NCBI GenBank assembly: GCA_030639985.1
Contig: DAOWKG010000170.1
Coordinates: forward strand, 1-10,643
Direction of reading: 5' to 3'
Length of the DNA stretch: 10,643 nt
Source: Desulfuromonadaceae bacterium
GTDB taxonomy: Bacteria > Desulfobacterota > Desulfuromonadia > Desulfuromonadales > Geopsychrobacteraceae
Shown: in pieces, positions 3 through 10,117 of the stretch
Layout: the number at the start of each line of letters is the position of its first letter
Position numbering within the stretch: the stretch's first letter is position 1
Translations under genes and position numbers: made by a program
Notes under the pieces: generated by a model
What the model saw: the letters and a program-made list of their open reading frames with translations, nothing else
Databases searched by the model: none
Told to the model about the DNA's origin: nothing

Positions 3-1358
3 TTTACCAACATCAACATCGGCGGCATCAGCAGTGACGGCAAGGATGGTGTCAGCGACGTTTCCTACCTTATGCTTGAGGTGGTTGAAGAACTGCACAT
101 CCTGCAACCGGGCAGCTCGGTCCATATCAGCAGCAAAACCCCAGATCGCTTCCTGCATGCCGCCTGCAAAGTTATCCGCCAGGGACACGGCTATCCTTCG
201 GTTTTCAATCCGGATGTCTACACAATTGAATTGATGCGTCAGGGAAAATCTCTGCAGGATGCCCGCGAAGGTGGTTGCAGCGGCTGTATCGAGGTCGGTG
301 CTTTCGGCAAGGAAGCCTATATTCTGACCGGCTATCTGAATGTTCCTAAAATTCTGGAAATTACCCTTAACAACGGAATCGATCCCGTCAGTGGAAAAAT
401 GGTCGGGATCGAAACCGGCAATCCTCGCAAATTCGAGAGCTATGCGGAACTGTACGCAGCGTTCCTCAAGCAACTCAATTTCATTGTCGACACCAAAATT
501 CGGGTCAGCAACTATATCGACCGGATGTTCGCCAAGTACGCCCCGGCTCCCTTTCTTTCGGTAGTGATTGAGGACTGTATCAGCAAAGGAAAAGATTATT
601 ACGACGCCGGGCCACGCTACAACACCAACTATATCCAGTGCACCGGGCTGGGAACGGTCACCGACAGTTTGGCCGCCTTGAAAAAACATGCCTTTGAAGA
701 CCAAACCTTCAGCATGGAACAGATTCTTGCTGCCGTGGCAAAAGACTTTGCCGGAGAAGAATTTTTGCGCCAGACGATCATCAACAAGACCCCCTTCTTT
801 GGCAACGATGATGATTATGCTGATGCTATTGCGCTGCAAATCTACCACGATCTCCTCAACGCAATTGATGGCAAACCAAACGTCAAGGGTGAGACCTTCC
901 ACCTGAACATGCTTTCAACCACTTGTCACATCTATTTCGGCAAGGTGATGGGTGCCACCCCCAATGGCCGCTTTGCCGGAAAATCGATCTCTGACGGTAC
1001 CTCGCCATCCCATGGTGCTGACACCCATGGGCCATCGGCGGTGATCAGATCACTGACCAAACTGGATCACAGTATGTCGGGCGGCACCCTGCTCAATCAA
1101 CGTTTTCTCCCCAGCCTGCTGAAGCGGGACCAGGATATCGTCAAACTCGGGCAGTTGATTCGCAGCTATTTCACCCTTGGTGGCCACCATATTCAATTTA
1201 ACGTCGTCGATACCGCAACCCTCCACGCGGCGCAGGAAAACCCTGAAGAGTACAAAGATCTGCTGGTGCGGATGGCGGGATATAGTGATTATTTCAACGA
1301 TATGAATGGGGATCTACAGCAGGAAGTGATTGAGCGGACGGAGAATGAAGCATTTTGA
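3..1358 (+). CDS. hypD: Glycyl radical enzyme, trans-4-hydroxyproline dehydratase type (HypD/HplG group), C-terminal part
   Basis: The reading frame is open from the left edge, so the N-terminus is outside the window; 451 residues remain, against about 790 for the family. The catalytic loop reads GGCSGCIE, with the thiyl cysteine codon at 285-287 and the general-base glutamate at 291-293. The glycyl radical loop near the C-terminus reads VRMAGYSDYF, with the radical glycine codon at 1278-1280. From recall of the Clostridioides difficile HypD sequence, similarity runs along the whole piece, for example LTGYLNVPKILE, KTPFFGNDDDYAD, TTCHIYFG and GGTLLNQRF. HypD removes water from trans-4-hydroxy-L-proline to give pyrroline-5-carboxylate; the close relative HplG cleaves a C-N bond of hydroxy-D-proline instead, and I cannot separate the two here. 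Odd point: a second cysteine (276-278) lies three residues before the catalytic one, where I recall Thr in HypD. No pyrroline-5-carboxylate reductase gene is in the window. The enzyme is cytoplasmic and oxygen-sensitive, and needs the activase downstream. Confidence 0.85.
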   Translation, partial: FTNINIGGISSDGKDGVSDVSYLMLEVVEELHILQPGSSVHISSKTPDRFLHAACKVIRQGHGYPSVFNPDVYTIELMRQGKSLQDAREGGCSGCIEVGAFGKEAYILTGYLNVPKILEITLNNGIDPVSGKMVGIETGNPRKFESYAELYAAFLKQLNFIVDTKIRVSNYIDRMFAKYAPAPFLSVVIEDCISKGKDYYDAGPRYNTNYIQCTGLGTVTDSLAALKKHAFEDQTFSMEQILAAVAKDFAGEEFLRQTIINKTPFFGNDDDYADAIALQIYHDLLNAIDGKPNVKGETFHLNMLSTTCHIYFGKVMGATPNGRFAGKSISDGTSPSHGADTHGPSAVIRSLTKLDHSMSGGTLLNQRFLPSLLKRDQDIVKLGQLIRSYFTLGGHHIQFNVVDTATLHAAQENPEEYKDLLVRMAGYSDYFNDMNGDLQQEVIERTENEAF

Positions 1359-1370
1359 TTAAAACCAGTA

Positions 1371-1615
1371 TAGCCACCAAGACACCAAGAAAAACAGGTT
1401 CAAAATATTTTTAACGGAGAGGCGGAGAGTTGCAGAGAAAGTCAAAAAAGATTTTTAAGATTTTAATGTCCAAACATAAAAGCTTCTCAAATTTTGTTGT
1501 GGTTTTAAAACCTTAAAAAAAGATGTTGATTGTGATTTTCTCTCCGTTTCTCCGCCTCTCCGTTAAAATGGTTTCGGTCTCGTTTTTCTTGGTGTCCTTG
1601 GCGCCTTGGTGGCTA
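1371..1615. repeat. Palindromic intergenic element with nested 8-bp tandem repeats
   Basis: Two arms, about 1371-1443 and 1537-1615, are imperfect inverted copies of each other around an AT-rich centre of about 90 bp. Each arm has an outer and an inner block of short tandem units. The left outer block is CACCAAGA twice (1375-1390); the right outer block is three units of the form CTTGGTG/CTTGGCG (about 1589-1612). The inner blocks are units of the form CGGAGAGG on the left (about 1413-1438) and TCTCTCCG, TTTCTCCG, CCTCTCCG on the right (1540-1561). The centre also has the 12-bp palindrome GGTTTTAAAACC at 1501-1512. No protein is encoded. In RNA it would fold into a very long hairpin between the glycyl radical enzyme and its activase, which could end or process the transcript. 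It resembles the short repeat clusters scattered through many environmental bacterial genomes; whether it is mobile (MITE- or REP-like) cannot be told from one copy. Confidence 0.85.
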
Positions 1616-1636
1616 ACATAAGATTTCAGGACTATC

Positions 1637-2545
1637 ATGCAACAACCTCTCATCTTCGATATCAAACGCTATGCCATCAACGATGGCCCCGGCATCCGTA
1701 TCACCATCTTTTTTAAAGGTTGTCCGCTCTCCTGCATCTGGTGCCATAACCCCGAAAGTATCTCGGCCAAACCGCAAAAAATGTACAATCCAGGCAAATG
1801 TATCGGTTGCGGCGAATGTGTGAAAGCCTGCCCGAATCATGCCTGTAGTTTGACTCAGGATGGGATCATCACCGACCTGCAGCGTTGCAATCTCAGCGGT
1901 CAATGTGCAGCGATATGCCCGACCCTGGCGACAGAGATTTCTGGTTATTACAAATCGGCTCCAGAGCTACTGAAAATTATCGAAACAGAGCGTGTCCTGT
2001 TTGACCAGTCTGGCGGCGGAGTCACCTTCTCCGGCGGGGAGCCACTGCTTTACCCCGACTATCTGACTGAAATTCTCGATGTCTGCGGCAATCAACAGAT
2101 TCACCGCAGCGTTGACACCAGTGGCTTTGCCAAACAGGAGCTCCTCCTTGAGGTTGCCAAACGAACCGATTTGTTCCTTTATGACCTCAAACTGATGGAT
2201 TCCGCTAAACACAAGGCATACACCGGGGTCGGCAATGAACTGATCCTTGCCAACCTTGGTGCCCTGGCTGAAACTGGAGCAGCCATCCAGATTCGCATTC
2301 CCTTGATCAAAGGGGTCAATTCTGACTTGAAAAACCTAGCAGCGTCAGCCGCCTTCATCACCAAACTGGCGGGGGAGAAAAAGAGTGTCAATCTCCTCCC
2401 CTATCATGATATAGCCAGTCATAAGTATCAAAAACTGGGAGAAAACTATCTGGCTGACAAGCTGCAGGAACCAGACGATGTTGACCTGCGACAGGCTATC
2501 GACTGCTTTACTGCCCACGACTTGTTAACCGTTGTCGGCGGCTGA
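1637..2545 (+). CDS. Glycyl radical enzyme activating enzyme (radical SAM, two-cluster ferredoxin insert)
   Basis: This 302-residue protein is a PflA-type activase that cleaves S-adenosylmethionine to put the radical on the glycine of the enzyme encoded just upstream. The radical SAM motif is CPLSCIWC (Cys29, Cys33, Cys36) after the typical YAINDGPGIR start and FFKGCPLSC. A ferredoxin-like insert follows: the first cluster motif is complete (Cys55, 58, 61, 65), but the second reads C-x5-C-x3-C (Cys84, 90, 94), with Ser87 at the usual second cysteine. The SAM-binding GGE motif lies in VTFSGGEPLL around residue 133, and the C-terminus has the usual LLPYHDIASHKYQKLG. The ATG at 1637 fits the family start and has a modest Shine-Dalgarno (CAGGA, about 1627-1631). 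The 245-bp palindromic repeat separates it from its target gene, and two transporter genes follow closely, suggesting an activase-transporter-transporter transcription unit. Confidence 0.93.
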   Translation: MQQPLIFDIKRYAINDGPGIRITIFFKGCPLSCIWCHNPESISAKPQKMYNPGKCIGCGECVKACPNHACSLTQDGIITDLQRCNLSGQCAAICPTLATEISGYYKSAPELLKIIETERVLFDQSGGGVTFSGGEPLLYPDYLTEILDVCGNQQIHRSVDTSGFAKQELLLEVAKRTDLFLYDLKLMDSAKHKAYTGVGNELILANLGALAETGAAIQIRIPLIKGVNSDLKNLAASAAFITKLAGEKKSVNLLPYHDIASHKYQKLGENYLADKLQEPDDVDLRQAIDCFTAHDLLTVVGG

Positions 2546-2556
2546 AATACAACTTC

Positions 2557-3882
2557 ATGGAAAATAAATCCACCCTCAGCTACAAACAGATATTTCTTTT
2601 CTGGCTCCCATTAGCCGCAACCTGGTTGATGATGGCAATTGAAGGGCCGTTTCTGGCGGCGGTTATTGCCCGGTTGGCGGCAGAGAAAATAAATCTGGCC
2701 GCCTACGGGGTAGCTTTTGCTTTTGCCTTGGTAGCAGAATCGCCCATAATCATGCTGATGAGCGCCAGTACGGCATTGTGCCGGGACCGGAAAAGTTACC
2801 GCCAACTCCGCAACTTCTCATTATTCCTCAGCCTGAGCGTCACCCTGTTGCTGGGTCTGTTCCTACTCCCGCCATGTTTTGATCTTATTATTATTAAACT
2901 GCTGGGCTTGCCCATCGAAGTAGCAAAGCTAACCCATACGGCACTGCTCTGGCTGCTCCCCTGGCCGGGGGCAATCGGTATCCGCCGGTTTTATCAAGGG
3001 ATTCTGATCGTCAAACATCAAACCCGCCGGATTGCTGTTTCCACTTCATTACGCCTGCTCACTATGGCAGCTAGCGCCCTACTGCTATATCACTATAGCT
3101 CTCTAGCGGGAGCGATAATTGGTGCCATTGCCTTATCGATCGGAGTAGTCGCCGAAGCACTCCTCACCCGCTATTTGACCCGCTTTGCCATTGCTGAAAT
3201 CCTACAAACCAAGGGTGAATCACAGCAGCAATTAAATTATCGGGAAATTTGGCATTACTATCTTCCCCTCGCCCTTACCCCATTTATCGGCTTATCAATC
3301 CACCCACTGGTTACTTTTTTTCTGGGAAAGGGTCGCGATGCCATCGAATCTTTGGCAGTTATGCCGGTTATTTATGGGCTGACCTTTATCTTCCGTGCTA
3401 TCGGGATTTCATATCAAGAGGTTGCAATTGCACTGCTGGGGGAAAACCGGGACAACTACCCCAAAGTTAGAAACTTTGCCATTGTATTGGGACTACTAAC
3501 CTCGACAGCGTTGTTTTTGATCGCCTTTACTCCACTTAGCGGTTTCTGGTTTCAACAACTATCCGGGCTTGATGACTTGCTAACCAGCTTTGCCACCGTG
3601 CCACTCCAGATATTGGCAATTTTCCCAGCTTTAACGGTGCTTGTATGCTTTCAACGATCAGTTTTGATAGTTACCCGTGCTACCCACCCAATCTCTATTG
3701 CCACCACAATTGAAGCTGGCACCATTTTTTTGGTTTTATTACTGGCACTGTTATACCTTCCCCTTTCGGGTGTCGTTGCCGCCGCATCTGCCTACGTCAT
3801 CGGTCGCTTACTGGCAGTAGCAGCACTGCAACGCTCGGTAATCCCGCAACTGCAGCAACTAACCAAAAAGGGAGGATTCTGA
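2557..3882 (+). CDS. MATE/MOP-superfamily integral membrane transporter, ANK-like
   Basis: A 441-residue very hydrophobic protein with about 12 predicted transmembrane helices in two related halves; each half opens with a helix of similar form (FLFWLPLAATWLMMAIEGP near residue 13 and WHYYLPLALTPFIGLSIHP near residue 230). This is the pattern of the MATE/MOP flippase superfamily, and the two openings resemble those of the ANK (progressive ankylosis) group more than the drug-exporting NorM group, judged from memory. The substrate is unknown. It starts 11 bp after the activase stop codon without a clear Shine-Dalgarno, suggesting translational coupling, and the EamA gene follows after 4 bp. The context suggests that it moves a substrate or product of the glycyl radical enzyme pathway, which is inference only. 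A polysaccharide or lipid flippase is the main alternative. Confidence 0.75.
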   Translation: MENKSTLSYKQIFLFWLPLAATWLMMAIEGPFLAAVIARLAAEKINLAAYGVAFAFALVAESPIIMLMSASTALCRDRKSYRQLRNFSLFLSLSVTLLLGLFLLPPCFDLIIIKLLGLPIEVAKLTHTALLWLLPWPGAIGIRRFYQGILIVKHQTRRIAVSTSLRLLTMAASALLLYHYSSLAGAIIGAIALSIGVVAEALLTRYLTRFAIAEILQTKGESQQQLNYREIWHYYLPLALTPFIGLSIHPLVTFFLGKGRDAIESLAVMPVIYGLTFIFRAIGISYQEVAIALLGENRDNYPKVRNFAIVLGLLTSTALFLIAFTPLSGFWFQQLSGLDDLLTSFATVPLQILAIFPALTVLVCFQRSVLIVTRATHPISIATTIEAGTIFLVLLLALLYLPLSGVVAAASAYVIGRLLAVAALQRSVIPQLQQLTKKGGF

Positions 3883-5727: not shown

Positions 5728-5746
5728 TGAACCTCAAAATGGTTCA
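5728..5746. promoter_or_regulatory. Possible operator: perfect 6-bp dyad upstream of uvrB
   Basis: TGAACC and GGTTCA form a perfect inverted repeat with a 7-bp spacer in the yitT/uvrB divergent region. The last base is the A of the possible upstream ATG at 5746, so if uvrB starts at 5797 the dyad lies in its leader. uvrB is a classic SOS gene and the half-site GAAC/GTTC occurs in some LexA boxes, but this spacing does not match a LexA site I know. A chance dyad is possible. Confidence 0.3.
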
Positions 5747-5796
5747 TGTCAACTGCGATTTTCAAGTTTAACAAAAAAATATTATGGATAGAAAAA

Positions 5797-7791
5797 ATGG
5801 CTCAATTTAGATTGCAATCGGACTATCAACCCTGTGGTGACCAACCCCAGGCGATTAAGGAATTGGTCGAAGGAATTGAACGTGGCGACCGTCATCAGGT
5901 ACTGCTCGGCGTCACCGGTTCAGGGAAAACCTTCACCATGGCAAACATGGTCAATCAGTTACAGCGACCGACCTTGGTGCTGGCTCACAACAAAACTTTG
6001 GCAGCACAGCTTTATGCTGAGTTCAAAGAACTGTTTCCCGATAATGCGGTCGAATATTTTGTCAGTTACTACGATTACTACCAACCTGAAGCCTACGTCC
6101 CCTCTACCGATACCTTTATCGACAAGGACAGTTCAATCAACGAAGAGATTGACAAATTACGCCACAGCGCCACCCGTTCACTCCTCTCCCGCCGCGATGT
6201 ATTAATCGTCGCCTCGGTCAGTTGTATCTACGGGCTCGGTTCACCAGAAGCGTACTTTGGCATGTTGATAAAGTTGCAAACCGGGATGGAATTGGATCGC
6301 AACAAGTTTCTCCATAATCTGGTTGAAATTCAATATGAACGCAACGATATTGATTTTCATCGAGGCACCTTCAGGGTCCGGGGTGACAGTGTCGAAATTT
6401 TTCCCGCTTATGAAGAAAAACGCGCTCTGCGGATTGAATTTTTCGGTGATGAAATTGATGCCATCAGTGAAATTGACCCACTGCGGGGCAAAGTAATAGA
6501 CCGCCTTGACAGCACAACTATTTTTCCCGCCAGCCACTATGTTGCCACCAAACCGACCTTGAAACGGGCAATCGGTGAAATTCAAGATGAACTGCAACAA
6601 CGGATTCAGTATTTTCAAGAACGCAACATGCTGTTGGAAGCACAGCGAATTGAACAACGCACCCTCTTCGATATCGAAATGATAGAAGAGATAGGCTATT
6701 GTCAGGGGATCGAAAATTATTCCCGCTTTCTCGACCGACGCAAAGTTGGTGAACCACCGTCTACCCTGTTCTCGTATCTGCCCGATGATGCTCTGATGTT
6801 TATCGACGAAAGTCACGTCAGTGTCAGTCAGGTTGGCGGTATGTATCGTGGCGACCGTTCCCGCAAGGAAACGCTGGTCAACTACGGCTTTCGCCTGCCA
6901 TCGGCACTCGACAATCGACCCCTGATGTTTGAAGAGTTTGCTGCCCGGCAACCACAGACAGTTTACGTTTCTGCCACCCCCGCCGATTATGAAATGGAAA
7001 AAGCAGATGGGGTTTTTGTCGAGCAAGTAATCCGCCCAACCGGTCTGGTTGACCCGCCGATAGAGATTCGTCCCGCCACCGACCAAGTCGATGACCTGAT
7101 CGAAGAAATCCGCATCACGGTTGCGACTAAAGCTCGAGTACTGGTAACCACATTGACCAAACGGATGGCCGAAGACCTCACCAGCTACCTGCAAGAACTC
7201 GATATCCGGGTCAACTACCTCCATTCTGATATCGTTACCATTGAACGAATCCAAATCATCCGTGCCTTACGGGAAGGGGAATTTGACGTACTGGTGGGAA
7301 TTAACTTATTGCGGGAAGGGCTCGACATCCCCGAAGTAGCCCTTGTCACTATTTTGGATGCCGATAAAGAGGGCTTCTTGCGTTCGGCACGTTCACTGAT
7401 CCAGACTTGTGGTCGGACAGCACGAAATGTCAACGGCCGGGTAATCATGTATGCCGACAAGATCACCCGCTCAATGCAAGCCTGTCTTGACGAAACCGAA
7501 CGCCGCCGTACCAAGCAACTGGCTCACAACGAAAAATATGGGATCACCCCCAAATCGATAACCAAACCGCTGCGCTCAATTCTTGATGACATCTCCTCCA
7601 AAGATGATGCGGGGCTGTCTCTGGTGGCCGAAGCTGAAACAGAATATGGTAATCCGGCAGAACTAAAAAAACTGATCATTGAACGAAAACAACAAATGCT
7701 CGCAGCAGCGGCCGATCTCGATTTTGAAAAAGCAGCAAAACTACGCGATCAAATGCTGATATTTGAAAAGTGCGAGTTGGCGTTACGCTGA
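5797..7791 (+). CDS. uvrB: Excinuclease ABC subunit B (UvrB)
   Basis: UvrB is the damage-verifying helicase-like subunit of nucleotide excision repair; it receives DNA from UvrA and recruits UvrC. The 664-residue form chosen here has all landmarks: Walker A GVTGSGKT (Lys44), the beta-hairpin region [21 protein letters not shown], motif II in FIDESHV, YVSATP, the helicase motif region [17 protein letters not shown], and a C-terminal UVR domain ([11 protein letters not shown] to KLRDQM) for UvrC contact. The start at 5797 puts the Walker lysine at 44, next to 45 in E. coli UvrB, and the protein begins [19 protein letters not shown] as in the family. An in-frame ATG at 5746 would add 17 residues; both starts have weak ribosome sites. 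Small departures from the usual signature: [16 protein letters not shown] where RSERSLIQTIGRAARN is common. It is a single gene, convergent with the ThiC-family gene. Confidence 0.97.
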
Positions 7792-7882: not shown

Positions 7883-9190
7883 TCAAACCTTATCCCCAGC
7901 TAAATCACCGTTGAACAACTTGCCAGAACCATTGGCAGCACAAAATTCACCACACATAGTACAGGTTTTTTCATCCTCTGGAATGCGGGAAGCACGTATT
8001 GCCTTGGCTTCTTCGGGGATCAAAGCGAGTTCAAATTGCTTGTCCCACTGCAGGTCACGACGCGCTTTGCTCATTTGCTTGTCACGTTCGCGCCCTTTTT
8101 CTGGGTACTTGTTCATATCACCAATATAGGTAGCAACACGGGCAGCATGAACCCCCTGGCGAACATCGTCTTCATTGGGCAGTGCCAAGTGCTCCGCCGG
8201 GGTAATGTAACAGATCAAGTCGGCACCATAACGGGCCGACTGAGCCGAACCAATCGCGGAACTGATGTGATCGAAACCGGGGACGATATCGCTAGTTATA
8301 GGGCCGAGCATGTAGTAAGGAGCTTCGTCACTCATCCGCTTCTGGATAAGAATATTGGCCTCAACTTCATCCAGCGGCATATGTCCAGGTCCTTCGACCA
8401 ACATTTGGCAGCCCATTTCCCGACCAATCTGTGCCAACTCACAATTGATAATCAACTCCTGCATTTGCGCCCGGTCGTGGCTGTCGTGAATTGCCCCCGC
8501 CCGCAAGCCGTTGCCTAACGACAAACAGACATCGTATTTTTTCAGGATATTTACCACCCGGTCAAAATGTTCATAAAGGGGGTTTTCCCGATTATTTTTT
8601 TCCATCCACGACACCATGGTGGTTCCACCCTTGGAGACCAGACCACCGTACCGGTAGTGCTGTTTGCGCAACCTCTCAATGGTATAGAGGTTGATGCCAC
8701 AATGAATTGCCATGAAGGCCAGACCGTCTTCACACTGCTTTTCGATCAGGTCGAACAGCTCTTCAGGGTCGAGTTTGTCGGCACTGCCCCGTTTTTTAGC
8801 AGCTTCACAAAAGGCCTGATATAGGGGGACATTGCCGACAGGAAGATCAACGGCAGCAATAACTTCACGTCGCACTTTATCCAGATTGCCGCCGACCGAC
8901 AGTTCCATCAGGGTATCGGCTCCAGCCGCTTGAGCAATTTTGGCTTTGCGAACTTCGGCGGCATAATCAACAATGTCGGATGAGGTACCGATGGAAGCAT
9001 TAACCTTGGTGCGTAAGCCTTTTCCGATTCCCACCGGGCGAGGCTTACTATTAATATTATTGGGGATGACGATTTTTCCGGCGGCAACCATATCGCGAAT
9101 ATATTCGGGGCAATATCCTTCCGCGGTGGCCACAGCAGCCATTTGTGGGGTGATAATTCCTTTTATCGCTTGTTCAACCTGGGTAAACAT
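7883..9190 (-). CDS. bzaF: ThiC-family radical SAM enzyme, probably 5-hydroxybenzimidazole synthase BzaF
   Basis: A 435-residue ThiC-family protein with the C-terminal cluster motif CTMCGEFC (Cys410, 413, 417), of the short clostridial C-x2-C-x3-C form. ThiC turns aminoimidazole ribotide into the thiamin pyrimidine; BzaF turns the same substrate into 5-hydroxybenzimidazole, precursor of the B12 lower ligand in anaerobes. Three signs favour BzaF. The gene sits behind a cobalamin riboswitch and terminator, not a TPP riboswitch. Several near-invariant ThiC stretches are changed: SLGNGLRAG for SLGDGLRPG, MLGPITSDIVPGFDHI for VLGPLVTDIAPGYDHI, and SAIGSAQSA for SAIGGA. Also, bzaF is known in Geobacter and Desulfuromonas relatives. 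The start at 9190 is set by AAGGAG (9201-9206); an in-frame ATG at 9262 would place the N-terminus inside the terminator hairpin. No bzaCDE-type methyltransferase or other cobamide gene adjoins. A plain thiC is the alternative. Confidence 0.8.
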   Translation of the reverse strand: MFTQVEQAIKGIITPQMAAVATAEGYCPEYIRDMVAAGKIVIPNNINSKPRPVGIGKGLRTKVNASIGTSSDIVDYAAEVRKAKIAQAAGADTLMELSVGGNLDKVRREVIAAVDLPVGNVPLYQAFCEAAKKRGSADKLDPEELFDLIEKQCEDGLAFMAIHCGINLYTIERLRKQHYRYGGLVSKGGTTMVSWMEKNNRENPLYEHFDRVVNILKKYDVCLSLGNGLRAGAIHDSHDRAQMQELIINCELAQIGREMGCQMLVEGPGHMPLDEVEANILIQKRMSDEAPYYMLGPITSDIVPGFDHISSAIGSAQSARYGADLICYITPAEHLALPNEDDVRQGVHAARVATYIGDMNKYPEKGRERDKQMSKARRDLQWDKQFELALIPEEAKAIRASRIPEDEKTCTMCGEFCAANGSGKLFNGDLAGDKV

Positions 9191-9200
9191 GTTGGTAATT

Positions 9201-9206
9201 CTCCTT
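9201..9206 (-). promoter_or_regulatory. Shine-Dalgarno site fixing the bzaF start
   Basis: On the minus strand AAGGAG lies 10 bases before the ATG at 9190 and about 40 bases downstream of the terminator U-run. It excludes the longer in-frame start at 9262 as the normal one. Confidence 0.75.
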
Positions 9207-9244
9207 GCAATACGGGTGATGTTGGCAAAATTAAAATGATTTCG

Positions 9245-9285
9245 CAAAAAAAATCCCCGCAACCTTGTTAAGGGCTGCGGGGATT
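9245..9285 (-). terminator. Intrinsic terminator, expression platform of the cobalamin riboswitch
   Basis: Read on the minus strand, AATCCCCGCA and TGCGGGGATT make a perfect 10-bp GC-rich stem, extended by CCTT/AAGG around a 3-nt loop and followed by eight T residues. It lies between the riboswitch aptamer and the Shine-Dalgarno site of bzaF, so it can only act as an attenuator: with cobalamin bound, transcription should end here. Confidence 0.92.
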
Positions 9286-9317
9286 CCGTTTTTAATCCAC
9301 ATAATTATTTATCCACA

Positions 9318-9449
9318 CACCTCATACCACGGAGGAGTAGCAAACAATAATAAATTGGGCGAGTATCTGACTGACATCAACAAATATGCTGATGATCACA
9401 GTGGCGGGTCCGTGACGGATTTACACCGTCTTCCACGATTCCAATTATT
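9318..9449 (-). promoter_or_regulatory. Cobalamin (B12) riboswitch
   Basis: On the minus strand the core reads GGAAGACGGTGTAAATCC and then ACGGACCCGCCACTGTGA, matching the conserved cobalamin aptamer core (GGTGnnAATCC and CCCGCCACTGTGA; + strand 9394-9435). After a single 7-bp hairpin (CATCAGC/GTTGATG) comes AGTCAGATACTCGCCC (9357-9372), a B12-box form. A small hairpin follows (CCTC/GAGG, 9320-9335) whose loop holds CCGTGG, complementary to TCACGG in the P5 region and so a candidate for the kissing loop of this class. The aptamer is compact: the peripheral GCCACTG domain of the long AdoCbl type is absent. A terminator follows, giving transcriptional off-control of the ThiC-family gene by B12. 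Confidence 0.88.
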
Positions 9450-9456
9450 CTATTCA

Positions 9457-9484
9457 ATTGTATGTTGTGCTGTTAGAAATGCAA
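9457..9484 (-). promoter_or_regulatory. Promoter for the riboswitch-bzaF transcript
   Basis: On the minus strand TTGCAT (9479-9484) and TACAAT (9457-9462) are separated by 16 bp, close to sigma-70 consensus. Transcription would start near 9450, just at the 5' edge of the riboswitch. A second possible -10, TAGAAT at 9447-9452, is less well placed. Confidence 0.55.
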
Positions 9485-9577: not shown

Positions 9578-9673
9578 GGAGGTAGCTAGTTCTCTGGTGA
9601 GGCTCACGGTCTTCAACACCGATGGGGGGCGCATCCCGTCCCTGGTGAGTTCGATTCTCATCTACCTCCGCCA
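9578..9673 (+). tRNA. selC: tRNA-Sec (anticodon TCA)
   Basis: A 96-base selenocysteine tRNA including the encoded CCA end. The acceptor stem is 8 bp (GGAGGTAG with CTACCTCC), one longer than in ordinary tRNAs. The D region CTCTGGTGAGGC closely follows the bacterial selC pattern. The anticodon loop CTTCAAC gives UCA at 9613-9615, which reads UGA. A long G/C-rich variable arm (about 9622-9642) precedes a T arm with TTCGATT. SelA charges it with selenium after seryl loading, and SelB brings it to UGA codons that have a SECIS element. selA and selB are not in the window, nor do I see a selenoprotein gene here. Confidence 0.97.
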
Positions 9674-9746: not shown

Positions 9747-10117
9747 ATGCACATAACCAAAGAAATTAATGATGAATGCATGATTGTAACCTGCGTCGGT
9801 GAATCCAATTGCGAAAATTGTATTGAGAATATCTATCGGCCAATCCTGAATATTCTGAAAATTCAAATTGTACCGGGCTGGTAATTGATAAGCGCAAAAT
9901 TCAATGTTCGCGGGAAAAAAAAAGCTTACGGTTAGTTGCCGATACCATCATCATTTACAAAAATCGCTCGCCACTCCGAAAGCTTGCACTCATTACCTCG
10001 ATTGAATATACCCAGGATGAAGAAATTCTCCAGACCATCCTGTTTGACAAGGGTCTGAATATCCGCCTGTTCAGTGACAAGGATCTGGCAGTTGCATGGG
10101 CACTATCATATCCTTAA
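9747..10117 (+). pseudogene. STAS/SpoIIAA-like small protein, broken by a frameshift
   Basis: The ATG at 9747 opens a frame (MHITKEINDECMIVTCVGES...) that stops at a TAA at 9882-9884 after 45 codons. The -1 frame takes over without a break as NCTGLVIDKRKIQ... and runs to TAA at 10115-10117. Joined at the A-run near 9865-9867 the two parts give about 123 residues with the outline of a SpoIIAA-like STAS domain: a strand, a helix (ENIYRPILNILK), the strand GLVIDKRK, and a C-terminal NIRLFSDKDLAVAWAL helix typical of that family. Restoring one A (CAAATT to CAAAATT) repairs the frame. The stop is TAA, so selenocysteine insertion cannot rescue it, and no slippery heptamer is visible. A sequencing error in the A-run is the alternative. 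The 73 bp between selC and this gene hold no clear ribosome site. Confidence 0.65.

Follow-up and report, generated by a model that had tools for sequence, protein, structure and literature searches.

The window analysed here, the whole stretch of 10,643 nucleotides of a contig from a Desulfuromonadaceae bacterium, carries a ThiC-superfamily gene, identified below as bzaF, which lies alone between uvrB and a tRNA-Sec gene, with its own riboswitch and without cob neighbours (Table 1). The open reading frame, from its start codon and the AAGGAG before it to its end, is the one that an earlier note, made from the letters of the window, had read as a ThiC-family gene. The genome to which the window belongs (G000) is a draft of 2.06 Mb in 345 contigs, about 90% complete.

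Table 1. Positions of bzaF, its leader elements and its neighbours in the window.
Feature	Position	Strand	Remarks
uvrB	5746..7791	+	convergent neighbour of bzaF
bzaF CDS	7883..9190	-	435 aa, ATG at 9190; ThiC superfamily (PF01964, 600 bits); in BzaF clade (100/100)
AAGGAG, Shine-Dalgarno-like	9201..9206	-	10 nt 5' of the ATG; read from the sequence
Intrinsic terminator hairpin with eight-U tail	about 9250..9287	-	between aptamer and bzaF; from folding
Predicted antiterminator strands	9294..9322	-	overlap the 3' end of the aptamer match; from pairing probabilities
AdoCbl (cobalamin) riboswitch aptamer, B12 box GCCACTG	9307..9459	-	RF01482, RF00174
tRNA-Sec gene	9578..9669	+	RF01852, 65.8 bits; opposite-strand neighbour marking the site of the unit

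The leader of bzaF

The cobalamin aptamer proposed in the earlier note was recovered by two Rfam models, RF01482 (51.2 bits, E 3.1e-7), whose gathering threshold of 50 was exceeded by only 1.2 bits, and RF00174 (38.3 bits, threshold 31.5). It shares with known AdoCbl riboswitches the B12 box, the core and the downstream terminator. It leads a single lower-ligand gene, whereas in most relatives the nearest such switch found heads a cob operon. The strong terminator of the note is equally well founded, as its hairpin reaches -26.4 kcal/mol with a z-score of -5.1, and none of 200 shuffled sequences folded as well; the terminator scan did not report this minus-strand hairpin, which was revealed by folding. 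Folding of the whole leader gave a z-score of -4.1. Within the window no TPP riboswitch was found, in agreement with the note. The promoter that it placed before the gene was not borne out: the search returned 3 promoter-like sites, no clear excess over the 1.3 +/- 1.0 in shuffled sequences, and the one site oriented like bzaF coincides in part with the aptamer.

The folding predictions give the 5' half of the terminator a mean probability of 0.65-0.83 of being paired with upstream sequence as long as the 3' half is not yet made, and of 0.00 thereafter; in the better case for an antiterminator within this range, the pairing partners overlap the end of the aptamer. An OFF switch usually works in this way, with an antiterminator that forms first and a terminator that wins afterwards. 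A switch between antiterminator and terminator is plausible for this leader, with OFF logic as the predicted outcome.

Identity of the enzyme and its active-site residues

The window gene is almost certainly bzaF, encoding a 5-hydroxybenzimidazole synthase, which makes a part of vitamin B12 anaerobically, and not thiC, as judged from phylogeny, residues and genomic context. In a tree of 87 rows, the window protein falls within the BzaF clade (25 rows, support 100/100), and BzaA, BzaB and ThiC each stand apart. A tree of these four families was a check suggested by the earlier note, and its outcome agrees with the BzaF reading given there. The clade includes the Geobacter metallireducens protein, named 5-hydroxybenzimidazole synthase in UniRef, which served as the BzaF reference (GSU3005 of Geobacter sulfurreducens lies outside the comparison set), and with which the window protein shares the residues at all counted places. 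Like Geobacter bzaF, the window gene would be a B12 gene of an anaerobe. BzaF (GSU3005) is tied to 5-hydroxybenzimidazole in passages of PMC7726332 and PMC8123684, and passages of PMC13119186 also link BzaF with this product. When nine signature columns were dropped, support for the BzaF clade was still 100. Descent of BzaF, BzaA and BzaB from a single ancestor was also considered and dropped, its SH-aLRT support having fallen from 96 to 76 without the same columns. With the BzaB model TIGR04386, the window protein scored 529.5 bits, below the curated cut-off of 700.

The genome carries two ThiC-family genes. The second, on contig C195, encodes a protein 46% identical to the window protein that groups among ThiC in the tree, and lies 3' of an ORF read as thiED. 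The earlier note had advised a search for another thiC gene with a TPP riboswitch, and both parts were found, the gene beside thiED and the only TPP riboswitch of the genome 5' of ORFs read as thiF, thiS and thiG; the link between them is interrupted by contig breaks.

That the window protein is a second ThiC, an HMP-P synthase that came under cobalamin control by chance, is very improbable. Annotation does point that way, given that two NCBIfam equivalog models for ThiC, TIGR00190 with 559 bits (cut-off 460) and NF009895 with 591 bits (cut-off 410), call it ThiC, and that most of the named relatives carry the same label. However, BzaA, BzaB and G. metallireducens BzaF likewise score over the cut-offs of both models, so that these proteins come to be named ThiC, a database error that the comparison exposes. 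Among the 120 relatives listed, only 3 (P0048, P0055 and P0096) are called 5-hydroxybenzimidazole synthase by any source. A second ThiC is further opposed by the placement in the tree, with and without the signature columns, by the other ThiC in the same genome, by the location of orthologues in cob operons, and by the loss of the Asn and Asp with which ThiC contacts aminoimidazole ribotide (AIR).

Residues were compared over 82 BzaF, 60 ThiC, 121 BzaA and 121 BzaB rows and numbered after Arabidopsis ThiC, onto which the window protein was aligned, with the numbering offset taken from residues named in papers. The ThiC rows are all from Desulfobacterota (31 from Desulfuromonadales and 29 others from the best hits of the BzaB-model search), and BzaA and BzaB are each represented by one protein and the best 120 hits to it. 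In ThiC, N228 holds the ribose 3'-OH of AIR and D383 is placed at the imidazole N3, as described in passages of PMC4389238 and PMC11117688. The window protein has Ser66 and Asn227 at these positions, and therefore lacks the Asn228 and Asp383 that mark a ThiC. Position 228 is Ser in 82/82 BzaF and 121/121 BzaA rows, Leu in 121/121 BzaB and Asn in 60/60 ThiC; position 383 is Asn in 82/82 BzaF and Asp in every ThiC, BzaA and BzaB row. In all rows compared, BzaF and ThiC can be told apart by the N228S and D383N pair, which is accompanied by R343K (Lys in 82/82 BzaF, Arg in 60/60 ThiC) and about two dozen other fixed differences. BzaF resembles ThiC in its fold family, its C-terminal Cys motif, the catalytic Cys (C474 of Caulobacter ThiC, conserved in every row of all families), Glu422 and Tyr449.

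BzaA and BzaB, of the Moorella and Eubacterium type, resemble BzaF in belonging to the ThiC superfamily, in lacking Asn228 and in three further changes that nearly all of them share with it. These are T320A (82/82 BzaF, 119/121 BzaA, 121/121 BzaB; Thr in 60/60 ThiC), A393S (82/82, 120/121 and 121/121; Ala in 59/60 ThiC) and F448Y (82/82, 120/121 and 120/121; Phe in 60/60 ThiC). Unlike BzaF, they form their own clades and keep Asp383. Moreover, Glu422, kept in BzaF and BzaB, is Lys in 121/121 BzaA rows, and Tyr449, kept in BzaF, is Phe in 121/121 BzaA and 119/121 BzaB rows. A second set of 32 BzaF proteins, which overlaps the first and includes a divergent copy from genome G003 of the host genus, agrees at all these places (32/32).

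Of two motifs that the earlier note regarded as altered from ThiC, SLGNGLRAG proved characteristic of the family, with Asn for Asp and Ala for Pro in 82/82 BzaF rows, against Asp and Pro in 60/60 ThiC rows. The other, GPITSDIVPGFDHI, is not diagnostic as a whole, since G. metallireducens BzaF reads GPISTDVAPGFDHI and the G003 protein GPLPADTGAGYDHI.

The D383A and N228D variants of Arabidopsis ThiC gave no HMP-P, only shunt product, and D383N partly restored activity, according to passages of PMC11117688; these data also count against a second ThiC. The D383N change by itself is clearly not enough to abolish ThiC activity. Given that both contacts are changed in BzaF and that the ThiC mutants are impaired, the two changes appear to fit a redirected radical cascade.

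Gene context among relatives and in the host genus

We collected 91 bzaF loci, 78 of them with at least 2.5 kb of upstream DNA. Among these 78, cob genes lie upstream of bzaF in 72, so that orthologues are linked to cobamide genes, though not in the window itself, and most stand inside cobU-cobT-cobS operons. In Geotalea daltonii, a passage of PMC13119186 places bzaF after cobU-cobT-cobS-cobC-cbiA, in contrast to the window gene, alone under its own riboswitch. Six loci have no upstream cob genes (L031, L066, L074, L077, L174 and L282). A text pattern for the riboswitch missed the switches of the window and of the G003 locus and gave 8 matches in shuffled sequence, its distances being only indicative, and Rfam models were therefore used for the solo cases. 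A cobalamin riboswitch was found 114-125 nt before bzaF in five of the six, L174 having none. Two further solo cases, with less upstream DNA, are the window (riboswitch 116 nt before bzaF) and G003 (87 nt); in all, 7 of the 8 solo bzaF genes seen stand behind a B12 switch of their own. No tRNA was found in the available DNA near the six solo loci, and solo bzaF genes are thus not generally tied to tRNA-Sec. Across the order, BzaF at 66% identity or more is present in 55 of 136 genomes, by our own count.

Two loci are unusual in other respects. L174 (contig C73 of G034) holds a second bzaF copy, with no Rfam riboswitch in 9 kb, in a genome that also has bzaF in a cob operon. L113 (contig C8 of G352) is a bzaA-bzaB-cobT cluster, and G352 is the sole genome among 297 of the phylum sample with a BzaB above the TIGR04386 cut-off.

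In the host genus, bzaF is present in 2 of 14 genomes, G000 and G003. ThiC-family fragments of G002, G003 and G012, and likewise of G030, were candidates for further bzaF but proved to be ThiC, with 85-96% identity to the ThiC of the same genome, and among the twelve genomes without bzaF, three (G006, G007 and G013, 63-88% complete) have no ThiC-family match at all. CobT was found in 11 of the 14 genomes and CbiD in 4. Ten sister genomes have cobU-cobT-cobS-cobD/cobQ without bzaF, and in nine of these a cobalamin riboswitch precedes cobU. In G000, contig C111 holds a cobT fragment, cut by the contig end, and then cobS and cobD-cobQ, with no bzaF between; CbiD is encoded on C16. G003 has bzaF and no CobT match, in a genome rated complete.

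The order uvrB-moeA-tRNA-Sec occurs in five sister genomes, moeA-tRNA-Sec in G002, in G003 and in a further genome of the family, G020, and uvrB-tRNA-Sec, without moeA, in G001. In the window, the bzaF unit occupies the place of moeA, and the moeA of G000, 81% identical to that of G003, lies on another contig. The G003 locus (L163, contig C97) has the order moeA, tRNA-Sec, riboswitch (105.8 bits), bzaF; its BzaF, on the 3' side of tRNA-Sec, is only 66% identical to that of the window. The two riboswitch-bzaF units thus lie on opposite sides of tRNA-Sec, each some 117 nt from it, and the chance of finding two unlike bzaF genes beside the same tRNA is about one in a thousand by an after-the-fact estimate. 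In G001 (locus L222, contig C16), positions 854-3245 encode a phage integrase (PF00589) and Abi_2 just past the 3' end of tRNA-Sec, and for this reason the tRNA gene seems to be a site of integration in this genus.

Origin and possible role of the unit

The riboswitch-bzaF unit was probably acquired horizontally, given that the closest relatives of the window BzaF are in other families. With UvrB as a yardstick for genome kinship, the window BzaF is 87-91% identical to those of G353-G356 (the genomes of loci L003-L006), whose UvrB is 75-77% identical, and 76-79% identical to those of genomes of its own family, whose UvrB is 81-88% identical. A linear fit of BzaF on UvrB distances put the distances of the window to its presumed donors only 1.6-2.0 sd off, too weak by itself, and trees were used instead. 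The window BzaF groups with those of G353-G356 and G041 (98/93), and constraining it to the BzaF of its own family, a group named after the identities had been seen, was rejected (lnL 176 lower, p-AU 7.5e-106). Its ten nearest full-length relatives (85-91% identical) all have bzaF directly behind cobU-cobT.

Relocation within the genome is a rather unlikely alternative. It supposes an ancestral bzaF of the genus, between cobT and cobS, that in this species left the operon together with a duplicate of the leader and in the others was lost, with no recent transfer of bzaF alone. The cobU-cobT-cobS-cobD/cobQ order of the genus is that of relatives bearing bzaF between cobT and cobS, the CobT of the genus is sister to theirs, and GC3 of the window bzaF is host-like (0.52, with 0.51 for uvrB and 0.59-0.77 for bzaF of L003-L006). 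In addition, an AU test did not reject a window BzaF just outside the relatives' group (p-AU 0.19), a value compatible with transfer and with relocation alike. Taken together, the GC3, the type of cob operon and this test speak against a simple recent transfer. Relocation, however, requires losses across a genus in which few genomes have the gene, and it sits poorly with the ratio of the distances from G000 to the relatives over those among the relatives, which is 1.58 for CobT and 0.98 for BzaF. The leader also disagrees with it, as it shares 70-73% identity with the L004 and L005 leaders, against 55-62% with nine cobU leaders of the same genus.

The draft state of the assembly and the nearest BzaF relatives in other families could also suggest an assembly or binning artefact, in which bzaF and its leader come from another organism. 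Such an artefact is highly improbable, as uvrB, bzaF and tRNA-Sec are held on one contig, GC3 of bzaF is like that of uvrB and unlike that of the L003-L006 genes, and G003 also has a riboswitch-bzaF unit beside tRNA-Sec.

Very probably, the locus as a whole is a solo riboswitch-terminator-bzaF unit that makes the lower ligand of B12 and is repressed by adenosylated cobamide. Family, aptamer match, terminator, separate ThiC, CobT fragment and CobS were computed directly; homology suggests 5-hydroxybenzimidazole as the product, and homology and leader anatomy suggest an adenosylated cobamide as the ligand and repression by B12. At low levels of adenosylated cobamide, the antiterminator would form in the nascent leader and bzaF would be transcribed. 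BzaF would then convert AIR to 5-hydroxybenzimidazole by ThiC-type radical-SAM chemistry, and CobT and CobS, whose genes lie on other contigs or sites of the genome than bzaF, would attach it as the cobamide lower ligand. With plentiful cobamide, the bound aptamer would let the terminator form, and AIR, an intermediate common to purine and thiamin synthesis, would be spared.

The enzyme and the B12 switch are of known kinds, and the solo, self-switched setting is less usual. A free-standing, probably mobile bzaF and a family-wide residue signature were not found in the open-licence literature, nor a BzaF-ThiC-Bza residue comparison in passages of it, the primary BzaF papers being outside this scope. 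Two readings are put forward jointly and tentatively. The first is that a few positions around AIR set the outcome between thiamin pyrimidine and benzimidazole, as suggested by the absence of Asn228 from all 82 BzaF, 121 BzaA and 121 BzaB rows, by the Ala320, Ser393 and Tyr448 of nearly all of them, and by D383N in BzaF. The radical cascade of the ThiC family is among the most complex known; a simple residue signature tells the enzymes apart, and lets the residues that steer the cascade be tested. The second is that riboswitch-bzaF is a mobile lower-ligand cassette, given that two bzaF genes of 66% identity, each with its own riboswitch, flank tRNA-Sec, and a third species has an integrase at the same tRNA. 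The cobamide lower ligand decides who can use a cobamide. If the cassette is indeed mobile, a species could acquire a lower ligand of its own in a single step, which suggests the movement of one self-regulated gene as a route to this ligand.

Two other parts of the window were also inspected. A small ORF just past tRNA-Sec (9747-10117, plus strand) is frameshifted relative to intact homologues of 123 aa in G002 (L226, 3016-3387) and G006 (L227, 5690-6061), both also 3' of tRNA-Sec; the one in G002 matched no Pfam family. At the other end, positions 3-2545 (plus strand) encode a PFL-like glycyl radical enzyme, cut by the contig end, and its radical-SAM activating enzyme.
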